A program made the translations under genes and the position numbers. Below are positions 1 to 7,219 of a DNA stretch of 64,000 bases, piece after piece (within the stretch, counting starts at the first letter, position 1; the number at the start of each line of letters is the position of its first letter). The notes beneath the pieces are model-generated. The model saw only the letters and a list, made by a program, of their open reading frames with translations. It made no database searches and had not been told where the DNA came from. Source of the stretch: Odoribacter lunatus (GTDB taxonomy: Bacteria; Bacteroidota; Bacteroidia; Bacteroidales; Marinifilaceae); NCBI RefSeq assembly GCF_943193135.1, contig NZ_CALPCZ010000013.1, positions 1 through 64,000 of the forward strand, written 5' to 3'.

Positions 1-117
1 TTCCTCCAAAAAGTCAATGCACTTTTGCTCGTCTGAAAACCTCGAATAAATCTCAAAAATTGACTTTGCTTCAAATTCTATCATTTCTAATGCACTTATT
101 GTGAGATGATTGTGCAT
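1..117 (-). mobile_element. IS1595-type transposase, N-terminal part (runs off window)
   Basis: Reading the minus strand from 117 gives an open frame of 39 codons that leaves the window at base 1. The residues FEIYSRFSDEQKCIDFLEE resemble the N-terminus of IS1595-family transposases, which open with a phrase like 'FYKRFPDEQSCIDFFRE' ahead of a zinc-ribbon segment. A second ATG twelve codons in is an equally possible start. The zinc ribbon and catalytic domain would lie outside the window, so I cannot say whether the element is intact. I did not identify its terminal inverted repeat in 118-350. Confidence 0.6.
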
Positions 118-353
118 AACAAATATACATTAAATAGATATTAATCTACACCATATTTGAAAGAAATTTGATGGTTTTTCGAGAATTATTTTGAGATAGG
201 AATCAATAAAATTGATAAATATGTATTTATCTTAATTTTTAATTATGGGGAGATTCCATATTGCATTGTAAAAATCCATATATTTGTATCGTCCCATTGT
301 TAAATGGGAGGACATATCAGTTTTAAACATGGAAAGTGTTTAGGCTTGTTCTC

Positions 354-493
354 GTCACGTAAATCTGACAATTTTTGAGACCGAGGAATAAGTTACAAGA
401 CTTTCCACCTTGTGTATGCATAATTTCTTATGCTATACAAGTGTGGATACTATTCTTATTTTACGGTCAAGGTTTTGTCAGAACCCACGTGAC
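354..493 (+). ncRNA. Long imperfect hairpin; candidate structured RNA or MITE-like palindrome
   Basis: The two halves of this 140-base stretch are complementary along most of their length. The outer arm GTCACGT (354-360) pairs with ACGTGAC (487-493). TCTGACAA (364-371) pairs with TTGTCAGA, further stems carry ACCG/CGGT and AATAAG/CTTATT, an asymmetric internal loop follows (about 391-402), and the tip is TCCAC...GCATAA/TTATGC...GTGGA with loop TTTC. A -7-like TAGGCTTG lies at 341-348 and a consensus TATATTTG at 279-286, so transcription on the plus strand is plausible. A long closing stem, a central bubble and an apical hairpin is the layout of 6S RNA, but the same shape would be made by a palindromic mobile element next to the IS fragment. 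Strand is inferred from the promoter-like boxes. Confidence 0.4.
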
Positions 494-578
494 TAAGGTA
501 AGTTTACAATATCCACACTTTCTTTTTGCCAATAATTAAACTCTTCTTTTGGATATTGGGAAGGCATACATTTTTAAT

Positions 579-1166
579 ATGGAGGATGCTAATGATTATG
601 GTGTGGTTTATGTATTGACCAATCCCGTCATGCCCGGCTTGGTGAAGATCGGGATGACAAAAAGAGGCGACGTTGGAAAACGGATGAGAGAGCTGTATAA
701 GACAGGCGTACCTGTACCCTTTGAATGTGAATACGCCTGCAAGGTAAACTACGATGTCTGTCTTGAAATCGAGCAGGCACTGCACAAGGTATTTGAGAAA
801 AAACGGATAAATGACTCAAGAGAGTTCTTCAAGGTCGCTTCTGAAAAGGTGATTCCAATCCTGCAGGTATTCAGCAAAGGTGAGATAACTGTGGAAATCC
901 GGGAACAAATCCACAAGCGTCGTCCCCCGCTTGACTACCGCTTGATGGGCATCGCCGAAGGTGAGGAACTGACATACGACCTTGATCCTTTCGTCAAGGT
1001 GAAGGTCGTGAGTAATAAAAAAGTCAGCTACAACGGCGAGGAAATGTCGCTGACCGCCGTCACGAAGCAAATCATGGGTGTCACCCGTGAACTCCAGCCC
1101 ACCACCTATTGGAGTTATCGTGGCAGAAACCTCAAAGACATTTATGAAGAAACCTTTAAAGATTGA
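579..1166 (+). CDS. T5orf172/GIY-YIG-like domain protein
   Basis: A protein of 195 residues. The N-terminal half (GVVYVLTNP, LVKIGMTKR, then KRMRELYKTGVPVPFE) matches the T5orf172 / MUG113 branch of the GIY-YIG nuclease fold, including the V-K-I-G strand and the following Arg-rich helix. The C-terminal 70 residues (KVVSNKKVSYNGEEMSLTA, then QPTTYWSYRGRNLKDIYEE) look like the small RAMA/DUF4357-type domain often attached to DNA-modifying or restriction proteins. I chose the ATG at 579 because the longer frame needs a TTG start at 549. Such genes are common in phage-derived and defence-rich islands, consistent with the neighbouring IS fragment. The catalytic activity is not established, and no partner methylase or nuclease is visible. 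Confidence 0.65.
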   Translation: MEDANDYGVVYVLTNPVMPGLVKIGMTKRGDVGKRMRELYKTGVPVPFECEYACKVNYDVCLEIEQALHKVFEKKRINDSREFFKVASEKVIPILQVFSKGEITVEIREQIHKRRPPLDYRLMGIAEGEELTYDLDPFVKVKVVSNKKVSYNGEEMSLTAVTKQIMGVTRELQPTTYWSYRGRNLKDIYEETFKD

Positions 1167-1208
1167 AAGAATAGAATTTATGTATGTTTAATTTTAAATC
1201 AATTTAGT

Positions 1209-2342
1209 ATGAAAAAATTATTATTTCTTTTAACGATGTTGACCTTTATGGTCGCTTGTTCCGATGATGACAAGAACGATACCCCAATTAATGGTCTTGA
1301 AATCCCGAAGTTTGAAAATCCTGTCACTCCGGGTCAGACGATAACAATCAAGGGTGAAGGATTTGATGAAGACAGTGAAATATGGTTCAGACAAATTGCC
1401 ACACGAACAACGGACAATGACGATGTAAAGGCGGAAGTTACGGGTGTGGATGCAAACGGTATCACTTTCGTTGCACCTTCTGTGTATGGCAATCAAACTG
1501 TTTTATTGAAACAAGATGGCAGGGAATATAAACTCGGAGAGATGCTTTTTGCCGACCAACCGGAAGCACCTGCGGATGCGGAGATTCTGCCGAAGAAGAT
1601 AAAAAAGGTTACTGAATATGAGGATGAGTATGAGTATGAGTATATTTATGAATATGAATATTATGCAGACGGGAGGATTAAATTCTGTAAATTATTATCA
1701 TATAATGAAACTAATACATACATCTATTCCGATAATAAAATTACGGTTAAAAATGATGGCACTTTAGAAGATGAATTCACTTTCATATTAGAAAATGGAC
1801 GTATTGTATCTTTTTCAGATAAATATAAAGATTCTGATGGTGATTATAAAGCAGATTATAAACTTGAATATGATAAGGAAGGTTATTTAAGCAATGTAGA
1901 AATGAGAGAGTTGGCGGGGGAGTCAATGACAGAAACCTTCTCATGTGTTGGAGGCAATTTGGTGAATTACACTTTTAAAGATAATGTAGAAAAAGACAAT
2001 TATAGTTCTGTTGAATTCATTTACGGAGAGCAACTGAATAATTTGAATATTGACATGTTTTACTTTATCGGATCGTATTATTTTGATAGCAATATAGATT
2101 TGGCATTCCAGTTCAATTTGATAGGGAAACGTTCGTATTATCTGCCAAGCAGTATGAAGGTTACTCGTCCGGAATGGGATGATGATGAAGATAAAGTTAT
2201 TGGTTATAAAACTTATACGGCAAAAATTGAATATGAAATGGACGGAGAATATATCACAAAAATCACCATCAGGGAAGAAGGCCACGAGGACGTCGATGAA
2301 GATGAATGGTCTGAAGTCTTCAAATTTGAATACGAAGACTAA
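1209..2342 (+). CDS. Lipoprotein with IPT/TIG domain and Tyr-Glu repeat
   Basis: A 377-residue protein with a lipoprotein signal: Lys-Lys start, hydrophobic stretch, then ACSDDD with Cys17 as the acylated residue. Acidic residues right after the Cys are typical of surface-exported Bacteroidota lipoproteins. Residues 30-115 read as an IPT/TIG-type Ig fold (FENPVTPGQTITIKGEGF). Around residues 137-152 is a low-complexity run of alternating Tyr and Glu. The remainder (YADGRIKFCKLL, EYDKEGYLSNVEM) resembles the beta-repeat architecture of secreted YD-type or DUF4595-like proteins. The composition is very acidic. No enzymatic motif is seen. It lies 42 bp after the T5orf172 gene and ends just before a clear terminator. 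Function unknown; a cell-surface binding role is an inference. Confidence 0.75.
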   Translation: MKKLLFLLTMLTFMVACSDDDKNDTPINGLEIPKFENPVTPGQTITIKGEGFDEDSEIWFRQIATRTTDNDDVKAEVTGVDANGITFVAPSVYGNQTVLLKQDGREYKLGEMLFADQPEAPADAEILPKKIKKVTEYEDEYEYEYIYEYEYYADGRIKFCKLLSYNETNTYIYSDNKITVKNDGTLEDEFTFILENGRIVSFSDKYKDSDGDYKADYKLEYDKEGYLSNVEMRELAGESMTETFSCVGGNLVNYTFKDNVEKDNYSSVEFIYGEQLNNLNIDMFYFIGSYYFDSNIDLAFQFNLIGKRSYYLPSSMKVTRPEWDDDEDKVIGYKTYTAKIEYEMDGEYITKITIREEGHEDVDEDEWSEVFKFEYED

Positions 2343-2359
2343 CAGTTGATTATTCTTAA

Positions 2360-2398
2360 AATAAACGGTGCATTGGAAACGATACACCGTTTTTATTT
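2360..2398 (+). terminator. Rho-independent terminator after the IPT/TIG lipoprotein
   Basis: AAACGGTG and CACCGTTT pair across a 14-base loop and are followed directly by TTTATTT, 18 bases after the lipoprotein stop codon. Confidence 0.7.
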
Positions 2399-2412
2399 CT
2401 GTACCATTATTC

Positions 2413-2435
2413 TTTGCATATATAAAATATGCAAA
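2413..2435. repeat. 9-bp perfect inverted repeat upstream of the G8 gene
   Basis: TTTGCATAT (2413-2421) and ATATGCAAA (2427-2435) are exact inverted copies around a five-base centre. They lie 14 bp before the ATG at 2449 and do not carry a T-run, so an operator is more likely than a terminator. Confidence 0.45.
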
Positions 2436-2448
2436 TATTCAAATCGAT

Positions 2449-3230
2449 ATGAGTAAATCATTCTTGACTATAGCGCAAGCCTACACCAAGTTGGGCTTAT
2501 CGGGGGGGGTAACAACTGGATAAGAAAAAGCGAACTTGTATCCACCGGAAAATGTGACGCATCATTATTGGAAAAATATGGAGATAACGATTTCGTGGTG
2601 GATGAGGATATCATTCTTTTGGACAACGATTACCGTATTCCTTTTACGCAAAATCTTATTGATAGTCTTGGCAATAGTCCATCAAGCAGAACCGGCGTCA
2701 CAATACAGAATGAATGTGCGGTATTCGGTGCTTCCGATGCATTGGTTTATGATGTTGGCAATCTATTTGAGAAGGACAAGATTACAATCGAACTTGAGGT
2801 TATGTTTTTGAGTTATCCGGATGCCAATAAGCAATGTCCGGTATTCAATACAAGTTTTACCCAATTCCAAAATGATGTGCCTTTTGCAATATGGGGGAAC
2901 TATTGCTCGTGGGATTCTATGAATTATCACGTTCTTTACTACAATGGTGTTCCTGAAGATAAGTCAGGATCAGGAAAATACAACAAGATTCAGCTTAACA
3001 AATGGTACAAATGCAAGCTTGTATGGACATATTCGGAACATAAGGTGTGGTGCTACCTTGATGATGATTATCTTTCAAAAAGATGGAACTACACGACAAG
3101 ACCAAGTTATTCGTCAAGACCGACTAAGATATATTTCGGCATGACACAGAATCCGATTAGCGGATATGATAGACAGATATACCAAAGTTGTAATTTCAAA
3201 CTGAGGAACTTTGTGTTGAAGGCGGAATAA
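2449..3230 (+). pseudogene. Phase-variable or frameshifted gene, interrupted at an eight-G run
   Basis: From the ATG at 2449 the frame reads MSKSFLTIAQAYTKLGLSGG, reaches a run of eight G (2502-2509), and stops at TAA 2521. In the frame one base earlier the text continues without a break, GGNNWIRKSELVSTG and on through the 220-residue frame that starts at 2568, to the stop at 3228-3230. With nine or six G the two parts join into one protein of about 259-260 residues. The phrase 'NNWIRKSELVSTG' resembles Bacteroidota phage-tail-like or surface proteins. The C-terminal half (ITIELEVMFLSY, KIYFGM, CNFKLRNFVLK) suggests a jelly-roll/LamG-like sandwich. A homopolymeric tract at the 20th codon is a classical slipped-strand switch, so this may be an 'off' allele rather than a dead gene. 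A sequencing slip in the run is the main alternative. Confidence 0.6.
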
Positions 3231-3384
3231 TGACATCATTACGTTTCATTTTTCCATTATGCATATTTCTGTCAAGAGTCATGCATTTCCCAATGCGTCA
3301 AATAAAGAGTGCCGCAATCTCGTATGAATTTCATATCTTTTTTCAAGAGTATTTGTCCATAAATACTTCATAATAACATAACCT

Positions 3385-4059
3385 ATGAGACGCACATACG
3401 AATCCATTACCGATTGCTTGCAGGATTACAAGAACACGGTGTCACGCACCCAAAGTCTAAAAATCACTTTTGATAACATTCTCTCCGATCAGGAGCATGC
3501 GGAGCAATTCAAGATTCGGATAAACCAAGCCATGTTATTGCCTCATCATTTCGATATGGATTTCTTTTATGCCGGGAAACGGAAAGACGGCATTCGGATA
3601 TTGTCCACGTACGGATTCACGAAACTGAATCGTGAGAATATTTTCGACTACAATCCGAATGACCTGAATCGGATTAATGAACGCAATCAGAATCCGGACA
3701 AGTTCGTTGAAACGGAAACGAAGATTCTGAATGACCTTCCCTGCTACACATCCCCTTTGCTCAACCGTGAAGACCTGATTCATGTCGTGGAGCATGATCC
3801 ACGGACGTGCAAGTTGTTCGGTGAGAATTACCATTGTTTCGGCAGAGTATTCTTAAGACCGGAAGTTGTCAAAATGCAGATTGACAATATCGGAATGCTG
3901 ATGCTTCTCGATTACGGGCTGGATTGCTTGGTGAAGGGAGAAAAATTCCGTCTTCAGACGGTGGTGGGAAGATTGCTGGATTACAATGGAAAATTGAAAG
4001 AAGAGGAGATTAAAAGAGTGTTCGGGTTCTTCTTTGCGGATAAGAATGCAGTGTTTTAG
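3385..4059 (+). CDS. Hypothetical protein
   Basis: A 224-residue soluble protein that I do not recognise. It has no signal peptide or membrane segment. Charged helices dominate the first 130 residues, and a more hydrophobic stretch (VVKMQIDNIGMLMLLDYGLDCLVKG) leads to a C-terminal helix-turn-helix-like end (LDYNGKLKEEEIKRVFGFFF). It is a single gene with 154 bp of non-coding sequence before it and about 120 bp to the next promoter after it. Its location between a phage-like broken gene and an AT-rich module suggests accessory content. No function is proposed. Confidence 0.6.
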   Translation: MRRTYESITDCLQDYKNTVSRTQSLKITFDNILSDQEHAEQFKIRINQAMLLPHHFDMDFFYAGKRKDGIRILSTYGFTKLNRENIFDYNPNDLNRINERNQNPDKFVETETKILNDLPCYTSPLLNREDLIHVVEHDPRTCKLFGENYHCFGRVFLRPEVVKMQIDNIGMLMLLDYGLDCLVKGEKFRLQTVVGRLLDYNGKLKEEEIKRVFGFFFADKNAVF

Positions 4060-4128
4060 GGGGACAGAAGGGCATAACGAATAAAAATTTTGAGAAACCT
4101 TATGGAAAGATTTATCGTTTATTTTTTA

Positions 4129-4136
4129 TAGCTTTG
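4129..4136 (+). promoter_or_regulatory. Bacteroidota -7 box (TAGCTTTG)
   Basis: Exact match to TAnnTTTG, with transcription expected to begin near 4143, ahead of the small frame at 4179. The -33 element is weak (TTTA near 4111). Confidence 0.6.
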
Positions 4137-4178
4137 CGATGAGATTCTAAATCATTACATCTTACAAGATATAACACC

Positions 4179-4340
4179 ATGATTTACAAGGATTTAAACT
4201 CTTTCAATGGCAAATTGAGTAACGCTAATGTAAATGTTGATAGAGTTATCAATGTGGTTACAGAGAAAAACAAGAAACAATTTTGTTCATTAATGTCAAG
4301 GGTAATTCTATATCCCTCGAGGATGGTTAAAATAATATAA
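4179..4340 (+). CDS. Small hypothetical ORF (53 codons), possibly a decayed gene
   Basis: A short frame starting MIYKDLNSFNGKLSN follows a consensus -7 box by 42 bp. Near base 4280 an alternative frame reads FINVKGNSISLEDG and then stops. It looks more protein-like than the C-terminus in the starting frame, so a small indel may separate the two halves. Otherwise 4060-4489 holds no gene. The distance to the next start (4490) is too large to decide co-transcription. Coding status is uncertain. Confidence 0.3.
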   Translation: MIYKDLNSFNGKLSNANVNVDRVINVVTEKNKKQFCSLMSRVILYPSRMVKII

Positions 4341-4489
4341 TTTTCACAAAATACTCTTGAGCAAGAGAATCATCCCAAAATAGGACTGGTTGTTTTTTAT
4401 CATAATAATGTATAAAGACATATATTGTATTTAATGTATTATGTATATTTTAGCAGATCTTAATTTTAAATCAATTAGCTTATCATCAA

Positions 4490-5056
4490 ATGACAGAATT
4501 AGAGCAGTATGAAAAATCCGTAAAGGAATGTGTAGAGAAGGGGAACGACTATTTATTCCACAATGAAGGAAATGGACATGCCTTAATTATTTGCAAGTAT
4601 TTATTTAAGAATGCCCAAAAAGAAGTTTTAATTGCCGCAAATCAATTGTATAATGATGAGGTTGTAAACACAAGAGAATATATCGAGAGTATGAAGTCAT
4701 TCCTTGACAAAGGAAATACAAGACTAAATATCATTATTGCAAGCCTTCCTCCAAAAGAGCAAGTAAGCCAAAATCATGAAAGTTTTTATTGGATGTTATA
4801 TAATCACCCTTCTTATAAAGAAAGCAGAGTCCAAATAAAGGAGGGACAAGGGAAATTTTTTAGAGGAACTGATGGGAAAGAAATAAACTTTTGCACAGGT
4901 GACCATAATATGTATAGATTTGAAACTGACATAAATTTACGCAGAGCTGTCGCAAATTTCAATGACCCTAAAATCAATGGGTATTTAAGAGACTCATACC
5001 ATAAAATATTTGATACTTTAGACTCTAATGTCAATCTTAATGATTTTTTTGCTTAA
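4490..5056 (+). CDS. Hypothetical cytosolic partner of a two-gene membrane module
   Basis: A 188-residue soluble protein. The central alternation of short strands and helices (KEVLIAANQLYND, then a helix, then RLNIIIASLP) and the C-terminal phrase DHNMYRFETD followed by AVANFNDP resemble phospholipase-D-like folds used in some bacterial immunity proteins, but no HKD catalytic motif is present. That resemblance is an impression, not a proven relation. Its stop codon overlaps the next start as TAATG, so the two products are probably made together. The base composition is markedly AT-rich compared with the core genes from 6.1 kb onward, which suggests transfer. A sensor or regulator for the membrane partner is an inference. 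Confidence 0.6.
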   Translation: MTELEQYEKSVKECVEKGNDYLFHNEGNGHALIICKYLFKNAQKEVLIAANQLYNDEVVNTREYIESMKSFLDKGNTRLNIIIASLPPKEQVSQNHESFYWMLYNHPSYKESRVQIKEGQGKFFRGTDGKEINFCTGDHNMYRFETDINLRRAVANFNDPKINGYLRDSYHKIFDTLDSNVNLNDFFA

Positions 5057-5898
5057 TGGATAATTTTCTTGATGATTTTGCAACTTTTATTCAGCTTATG
5101 AGTGCTGTAAATTTTGCATACATTTTCACAAGTCTTCCTAAAACAATATATCATTCTATTTTTGATGAAGAGCAGCGACGGAATCAAAGATTTAATGAAT
5201 TCAGATTAGGTATTTTGGAGCCTTTTAGGCAAGATTTAGACAATATGCACTCCTTTGTGATTGATGGACACGACACGTCTACACACATTGATAAACTAAA
5301 TAAAAAATTCGTTGATATTGTTGATAAATGGGAAAATATAGAAGCCCAAACAAAAAATTGGACGAACAACATAAAAAAAGCAAAGGGATTTAAATGCTTA
5401 TCTTTATACATTAGTGTATATTGTATAGTGGATTTATTTGTAATTGCTGCTATGAAAACTTGGGCGAATTGGTATGTATATGCATATTTACTCAATTTTT
5501 GTGCATTATATTACTCTATTAAGATCACATTAAAGATTTTAAGGTCAAAGTGGAAAAATAAAAAGAATATTTTTTGTTATAATAAAACAAGAAAATACAT
5601 AACAAGAACAATGATTGTTTCATTTGCTTTATGGGGAATTTATGAATTAACACCAAGTCATTTAGATATTGGAGTGATAAAAAATTTTTTATACCCCAAT
5701 ATCCTATTGCCACTTTACCCTTGTATTTTTTCTGTGGGATATATATTCGCAATAATAATATTTGTGGATACATATAGAAGATTCAAAAAAATACAATTAT
5801 CATATATTTTAACGAAACTTAAAAAAGAAAAGAAAAAGATAGACGCTGCTTATAATTTACTCACATCTCAAGAATCTCAAGAACTAAAATGGGAATAA
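5056..5898 (+). CDS. Hypothetical multi-pass membrane protein of the two-gene module
   Basis: A 280-residue protein. Residues 1-110 are mainly cytosolic and helical, with a likely coiled segment around 60-105. Membrane segments fall near 113-133, 138-158, 183-199 and one or two between 211 and 240. The C-terminal 40 residues are Lys-rich and helical. The start overlaps the preceding stop by one base (TAATG), which indicates translational coupling. The pairing of a small soluble protein with a membrane protein in an AT-rich, single-operon island next to mobile-element debris is the usual setting of abortive-infection or membrane-disrupting defence modules. I do not recognise the family, so this role is only an inference. 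Confidence 0.6.
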   Translation: MDNFLDDFATFIQLMSAVNFAYIFTSLPKTIYHSIFDEEQRRNQRFNEFRLGILEPFRQDLDNMHSFVIDGHDTSTHIDKLNKKFVDIVDKWENIEAQTKNWTNNIKKAKGFKCLSLYISVYCIVDLFVIAAMKTWANWYVYAYLLNFCALYYSIKITLKILRSKWKNKKNIFCYNKTRKYITRTMIVSFALWGIYELTPSHLDIGVIKNFLYPNILLPLYPCIFSVGYIFAIIIFVDTYRRFKKIQLSYILTKLKKEKKKIDAAYNLLTSQESQELKWE

Positions 5899-6037
5899 CT
5901 TTGAATTTGTCTGAATTTTCAAAATTATTTGAATAAATTAAAAATAGATCTTATGTCTCATATAATTCTTATATAGAAAATTATGATTAATATAAGTTAT
6001 ATATAAGTACCTTAAGTATAAGGTTAAAAATAGATAA

Positions 6038-6067
6038 AATCGTCATAAAATTTATGGCGATTCTTTT
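6038..6067 (+). terminator. Rho-independent terminator before the TPR-HTH gene
   Basis: AATCGTCATAAA pairs with TTTATGGCGATT, allowing one G-U pair, and is followed by CTTTTT. It lies 140 bp after the membrane-protein gene. The rest of 5899-6121 is AT-rich and holds nothing else I can support. Confidence 0.65.
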
Positions 6068-6121
6068 TAAAATTGATTTGGTGTAAAGTTGTATATAAGT
6101 GCCCAGAAATAATATTGACGA

Positions 6122-7219
6122 ATGAAACCATTCTCTTCTTTGCGATTTGTATTTCTGCTCTGTTTCTGTCTTGGAGTGGGAATGGCTTTCGCAAATACGG
6201 ATTATTCAGAAGAATCGCCCATACAGAGCATGGTTAGTCGTTTTAATCCCAAGAAAATTGCCGGGGGGGCTTTGCTAAAGGCAGACAGGCTATATCGTGC
6301 GGGACAACCTTTCCTTTCCGACAGCCTTTTGCAAAAGGCTCTTCATTATTACGAGGGGCAACAACCGTGCTCCGAACTGACACGCCTTTATTTTTACACG
6401 GGGCTGTTTTATGAACGTCTAAATCAACCGGAAGAGGCATTGAAACAATACACGTTAGCGGAGACGAATCTTTCCCTTTTTCCCGACAGTTTGTTTTCTT
6501 TCGTTATTGCGCGGAAGATTTTCACTCTGCAACAGCTTTTTGGGAAAAGGGTGACGGAAGACCTGCAATGGGAAACCCGTTACGCGGAACTTTTGCAACA
6601 GGCTCAACAAGGGTATGTCACTGCTCGGAAGTGGCGCACGGCTTGTTTCGTACTTATTGGCCTGCTATCGGTTTTTGTTGGCGTCACGCATTACCGGACA
6701 CGTCATCGCAAACGTGAGTTGTTCAAAAGTCAGCTTTTTATCGAGCGCCTGCAACGGGCGGAAGATGAATTGAAAGAAAAAATGTCCCGGCAACTTCATG
6801 AAAAGGACGGCAAGCTGAAAGATTTTTTTCGTCTCCGGGTGGACATGATTAAAGAATTTGTCGAATTTTCCCAGAAATATGCCAACAATCCTGAAAAGCT
6901 GAAATATAAATTTCAACGTACTATCTCCACCGACTCTTTTTCTCCCACGGATTGGGAGTTGCTTCTCGAAGGTGTGAATATCACAGGGAACGGCATCATC
7001 ACGTATTTGCAAGAGAATTATCCGGATCTCACGGAAGAGAATTTGCGTTACTGTGCCCTTATCTGTGCCGGATTTGAAACGGATGAACTGGCTATTTTGT
7101 GTGATGTTAATAATACCTCTATTTATAAACGCCGCACCCGCTTGCGTCAAAAATTAAATCTTTCGCCCAATCAGGATTTAAAAAAGTTCTTTGATGAACT
7201 TATTGCCCGTCTTGGCTGA
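6122..7219 (+). CDS. TPR / transmembrane / HTH regulator
   Basis: A 365-residue protein. The signal peptide (residues 1-25, ending AFA) leads to a short periplasmic TPR-like helical region (FYTGLFYERLNQPEEALKQYTLAE, residues about 97-120). A membrane helix follows at about 171-190 (ACFVLIGLLSVFVGV), then a coiled coil. The C-terminal region (about 290-360) has the pattern EENLRYCALICAGFETDELAILCDVNNTSIYKRRTRLRQKL, a LuxR-like helix-turn-helix. This layout is common in Bacteroidota one-component membrane regulators. The gene at 53519 is a longer relative. It precedes the lone permease at 7403 by 183 bp on the same strand, so it may control that permease or share its signal, but no binding site is identified. 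Confidence 0.75.
   Translation: MKPFSSLRFVFLLCFCLGVGMAFANTDYSEESPIQSMVSRFNPKKIAGGALLKADRLYRAGQPFLSDSLLQKALHYYEGQQPCSELTRLYFYTGLFYERLNQPEEALKQYTLAETNLSLFPDSLFSFVIARKIFTLQQLFGKRVTEDLQWETRYAELLQQAQQGYVTARKWRTACFVLIGLLSVFVGVTHYRTRHRKRELFKSQLFIERLQRAEDELKEKMSRQLHEKDGKLKDFFRLRVDMIKEFVEFSQKYANNPEKLKYKFQRTISTDSFSPTDWELLLEGVNITGNGIITYLQENYPDLTEENLRYCALICAGFETDELAILCDVNNTSIYKRRTRLRQKLNLSPNQDLKKFFDELIARLG

Follow-up and report, generated by a model that had tools for sequence, protein, structure and literature searches.

Two open reading frames overlap near the start of a contig of Odoribacter lunatus, and the coding sense passes from one to the other at a run of eight G. This arrangement raises the question of whether the two frames are parts of one gene and, if so, whether the run acts as a phase-variation switch or marks the site of a simple replication error. 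We analyzed the locus in a window of 64,000 nucleotides (the whole stretch of DNA, to which all positions below refer unless another contig or locus is named). The window begins at the end of contig C13 in a draft assembly of 67 contigs, and the run lies 2.4 kb from the contig end.

Results

The upstream frame (2449..2523, + strand) starts with an ATG and encodes MSKSFLTIAQAYTKLGLSGGVTTG*, with MSKSFLTIAQAYTKLGLSGG being followed by VTTG and, after 24 codons, by a TAA stop at 2521-2523. The run of exactly eight G (2502..2509, + strand) lies inside the coding region and spans codons 18-21 of this frame. Here, the coding sense shifts to a frame two bases on (equal to -1), which is open over 257 codons (2457..3230, + strand), reads ...GGGNNWIRKSELVSTG... 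and carries ...GGGNNWIRKSELVSTGKCDASLLEKYG... Its coding sense extends from the run onwards (~2510-3227) to a stop at 3228-3230. The claim that an eight-G run breaks the gene and that the sequence continues in the neighboring frame is thus borne out: the 2449 frame ends at 2521-2523, and the -1 frame remains open to 3230. The third frame across the gene is closed by many stops, and 239 codons free of stops would arise by chance in a given frame with P ~3e-7 in first-order simulated DNA of local composition. Host codon usage favors the 2449 frame 5' of the run and the other frame 3' of the run. No ATG, GTG or TTG is present near the 5' end of the 2457-3230 frame, in which the first in-frame start is TTG 2568. 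We rejected a translation start inside the downstream frame as the main reading, as initiation at TTG 2568 would remove most of the conserved N-terminal domain outlined below. Other disabling mutations had been named as the mark of a plain pseudogene. In this copy, to which our check was confined, we found a single disruption in 257 codons and the remaining 239 codons undamaged. The gene is therefore no pseudogene that decayed long ago.

We searched by tblastn with the first 66 residues, translated through the run, and obtained a single phage protein, XCD04935.1. The alignment covers residues 1-56 (48% identity, E 2e-6, PP511520.1:12661-12831). XCD04935.1 is a hypothetical protein of Dulem virus 41 (PP511520.1), a circular phage genome of 92.9 kb from lemur faeces. 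The shared part corresponds to an N-terminal domain of ~56 residues that spans the G run (2449..2616, + strand). It begins at the start codon in both proteins (MSKEFLTVRDASNKLGLPGSTN... in XCD04935.1, MSKSFLTIAQAYTKLGLSGG... in the split gene), with the start and first 19 residues of the 2449 frame matching the start of the phage protein, and ends with YGYNDFPVDDDI in XCD04935.1 and YGDNDFVVDEDI in the split gene. Each half also matches on its own. The pre-tract half, 18 residues after the M, has 11/18 identities and a score that was reached in 0/200,000 shuffles; the score of the post-tract half against XCD04935.1 was reached in 0/20,000 shuffles. The two halves thus descend from one coding sequence, with 2449 as its true start. 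They flank the run in different frames and match one homologue, and it is the run length that sets the frame. Because the halves each align on their own with the N-terminus of the same phage protein, we regard 2449-3230, as judged from these alignments, as one gene split at the G run rather than as a chance juxtaposition of frames.

XCD04935.1 has the same N-terminal domain from the start codon as the split gene, but it differs in its continuous frame, in its C-terminal part and in its location in a phage, behind a tail-fibre gene. The phage frame has no G run and carries CCGGGCAGTACA at the corresponding place; the homologue is distant, with 48% identity over one domain. Its gene lies directly 3' of that for a tail-fibre protein of 1380 residues ('pyocin knob', with tail matches in PHROG), and the shared N-terminal domain is thus probably a tail attachment or adaptor domain. 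The C-terminal domain (2691..3227, + strand) is predicted, with low confidence, to form a lectin-like jelly roll of the concanavalin-A-like/LamG type, as concluded from an AlphaFold2 single-sequence model and Foldseek. The part following the N-terminal domain was modeled with a mean pLDDT of 50.9 and a pTM of 0.56; a full-length single-sequence structure was unusable (pLDDT 40). Best Foldseek matches of the C-terminal model were legume lectins and GH131 (PDB, E 1e-4), along with phage LamG/ConA proteins. Searches of Pfam, PHROGs, NCBIfam and PADLOC with the split-gene protein returned no match (Pfam and PHROG even at E 10), and a PDB sequence search gave nothing meaningful. Tentatively, the protein may be described as a lectin-like head, of weakly predicted fold, on a phage-type adaptor. 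The original prediction had guessed at a phage-tail-like protein, and this guess is well supported by the N-terminal homology to a protein encoded behind a tail-fibre gene and by the lectin-like C-terminal fold (low model confidence).

Relatives of the split gene were found neither in 60 related genomes nor in 59 genomes of the family, two congeners among them, where only weak short matches appeared. In 393 genomes of the order there was again no relative, the one weak match being to an unrelated oxidoreductase-like protein, and 395 genomes of the phylum contained no relative of the N-terminal domain. IMG/VR yielded none with either full-protein or N-terminal queries, and the genome-contig database held no full-protein relatives by search or by alignment. 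Plasmids were likewise negative for the split gene, and there is no second copy in its own genome.

The split gene follows a lipoprotein gene (1209-2342) that is closed by a terminator-like hairpin plus T run (2365..2398, + strand), of which a near-identical copy (34 bp, 97%) is located behind another gene (G000:C1:307731-307764). It follows from this hairpin that the split gene should be transcribed from a promoter of its own in ~2399-2448. Three genes without useful matches lie 3' of the split gene, and are followed by a regulator and FtsX-type genes common to both congeners. In those two genomes other genes stand in front of the regulator, and 1-6000 is thus a species-specific patch. No phage structural matches were found among the neighboring genes, and when the genome was searched with the tail fibre and the portal of Dulem 41, an approach blind to unrelated prophage, no relative of either was found. 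Just before the regulator gene (6122-7219) sits a short repeat (6026-6103) of ~37-78 bp, which is 89-96% identical in contigs C48, C42 and C4 of the same genome (G000), and a 39-bp near-perfect palindrome (5665-5703) is found within gene 5056-5898. At the contig end, window 1-209 has 209 bp in common with G000:C22:42608-42814 (ends of contigs C13 and C22, 92% identity), and a transposase-like frame lies near the C22 end (L048:3012-3989). The shared ends and the nearby transposase-like frame suggest that a repeat broke the assembly here.

Close to the same contig end we observed a candidate undescribed structured RNA of ~250 nt (window 292-545, or 279-545 in its wider delimitation, + strand), which we view as more interesting than the split gene. 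It consists of a 5' hairpin and a long interrupted hairpin of ~200 nt, with TATATTTG (Bacteroidota -7-like) just upstream. The same genome contains the RNA once more in full length, with different neighboring genes, and homologues occur in two other genera of the family (copies and homologues at L047:1765-2014, - strand; L048 ~4490-4597, - strand, 5' part only; L056:1470-1725; L055:1490-1760, - strand; L057:1340-1600, - strand). Folding of four sequences gave z of -6 to -7.5, compensatory changes are found at 24/60 consensus pairs in five sequences, and Rfam, searched up to E 1, returned no match. Directly 3' of the RNA, 549-1166 (+ strand) encodes a GIY-YIG (T5orf172) protein that matches the candidate defence family PDC-S57 (E 2.9e-67).

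We compared the run to others in the genome, which contains 14 tracts of at least eight G, counting both strands, 13 of them (all G8-G9) besides that at 2502-2509. Eleven of these 13 are in frame inside intact open frames, several clearly housekeeping; of the other two, one falls in a short frame and one in sequence that appears to be intergenic. As read from the translations, the intact run-bearing genes are LepB-, SpeA-, galactokinase-, LigA-, RuvX-, LpxB- and Mfd-like, and further ones encode BamA/TamA-like, formylglycine-enzyme-like, nucleotidyltransferase and membrane proteins. With 11/13 of the other runs in intact genes, several of them housekeeping, G runs show no enrichment in surface or accessory genes of this genome. 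G8-G9 runs are thus ordinary here rather than marking a set of contingency loci, and elsewhere the assembly counts such runs correctly. The genome also encodes MutS.

Discussion

We favor, with somewhat better than even confidence, a recent slippage frameshift in a solitary, accessory phage-derived lectin gene, reversible in principle. The gene would have originated as a phage-tail gene, with a short N-terminal domain of the tail-region type followed by a lectin-like domain. A one-step slipped-strand error during replication of the eight-G run may then have changed its base count, placing the two parts of the gene in different frames. A ribosome starting at 2449 would stop after 24 codons, and a full-length protein would presumably no longer be made. 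With no damage in the other 239 codons, the frameshift is likely to be recent. The gene is a solitary accessory, either acquired or a relic, whose loss would thus cost the cell little. The same slip could reverse the change, but nothing shows that reversal is frequent or selected.

The run could alternatively belong to a contingency locus, in which frequent changes in its length would turn on and off a lectin exposed on the surface or the virion, the assembly having caught the off state. Its position early in the gene is the usual place for a switching tract, and the frame has no other damage. A live phase-variable gene would indeed have an equally intact downstream frame, and a recent loss and the off state of a switch would look alike in the sequence. 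Campylobacter phages reportedly possess hypermutable polyG tracts, a finding ascribed to Sorensen et al. 2021 in PMC11868660, PMC10877375 and PMC8713573. In Campylobacter jejuni, switching is driven by polyG tracts with at least seven G, with G8 representing the on state and G7 the off state of cj1139 (PMC8437040). However, most of the other G8-G9 runs of our genome keep the frame of intact genes that are partly housekeeping and not surface genes, the only homologue (distant, with 48% identity over one domain) has no G run, and MutS is present. A virion context is also missing, as the genome yielded no relatives of the fibre and portal of Dulem 41. The passages on Bacteroides in a review of phase variation name mainly invertases and DNA inversion and not polyG tracts (PMC11868660), and our literature search found no useful papers on polyG phase variation in Bacteroides or Odoribacter. 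We regard a switch as possible but rather unlikely. From the original prediction of an on/off gene, we retain that one gene is broken at the run and unreadable as one frame; an evolved switch is unsupported, most of the other runs being in frame in intact genes, the one, distant homologue lacking the run and no prophage surrounding the gene. Domestication of a phage tail adaptor-lectin gene by a Bacteroidales gut bacterium, with polyG slippage as the switch, appears more doubtful still.

It is also conceivable that the gene is intact and that the G run was miscounted in sequencing or assembly. Such errors typically arise in homopolymers, the gene shows no other defect, and the run is found near a contig end of a draft assembly. 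We nevertheless consider a miscount improbable, since 11 other G8/G9 runs in the same assembly are in frame in intact, mostly recognizable genes. Finally, a programmed -1 ribosomal frameshift or transcriptional slippage at G_GGG_GGG could yield the full protein from the sequence as is. The heptamer (2502-2508) is in the zero frame, and a -1 slip from it enters the long frame. However, the sequence 3' of the heptamer shows no stimulatory fold (z -0.5), the phage homologue is encoded by an uninterrupted frame that lacks the motif, and the sister motif G_GG.G_GG.U showed the lowest frameshift frequency in an E. coli survey, with 0.018% in the absence of a stimulator (PMC4066793). A programmed -1 frameshift at the G run is unlikely, and we give recoding in either form very little credence.

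A recent slippage frameshift is thus our preferred reading. PolyG slippage is seldom described in Bacteroidales, where DNA inversion dominates. A true switch would add polyG slippage to the inversion-based phase variation of gut Bacteroidales, and the phage-derived lectin could affect binding to glycans. If the run has undergone a plain slip, which we think likelier, the locus is a further case of an accessory gene being lost at a homopolymer. The 13 other runs, which are mostly harmless in frame, caution against taking a frame break at a G run, on its own, for a switch.

Among known systems, phage proteins with LamG or concanavalin-A-like lectin domains resemble the split-gene protein in the predicted jelly roll of its C-terminal domain, but the latter has no Pfam or PHROG match at E 10, and model confidence is low. 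The polyG tracts reported for Campylobacter phages are similar in that a G run is present in a phage gene, and on our own reading they may function in host recognition. The split gene differs from them by being solitary in a bacterial genome, with no phage around. The genes cj1139, cj1421, cj1422 and cj1426 of Campylobacter jejuni likewise contain ~8 G early in the coding sequence, with the tract length setting the frame (PMC8437040, PMC8713573). There, however, variation has been measured and the tracts cluster in surface-modification genes, whereas the split gene is known from one assembly, and the other tracts of its genome are mostly located in intact, partly housekeeping genes.
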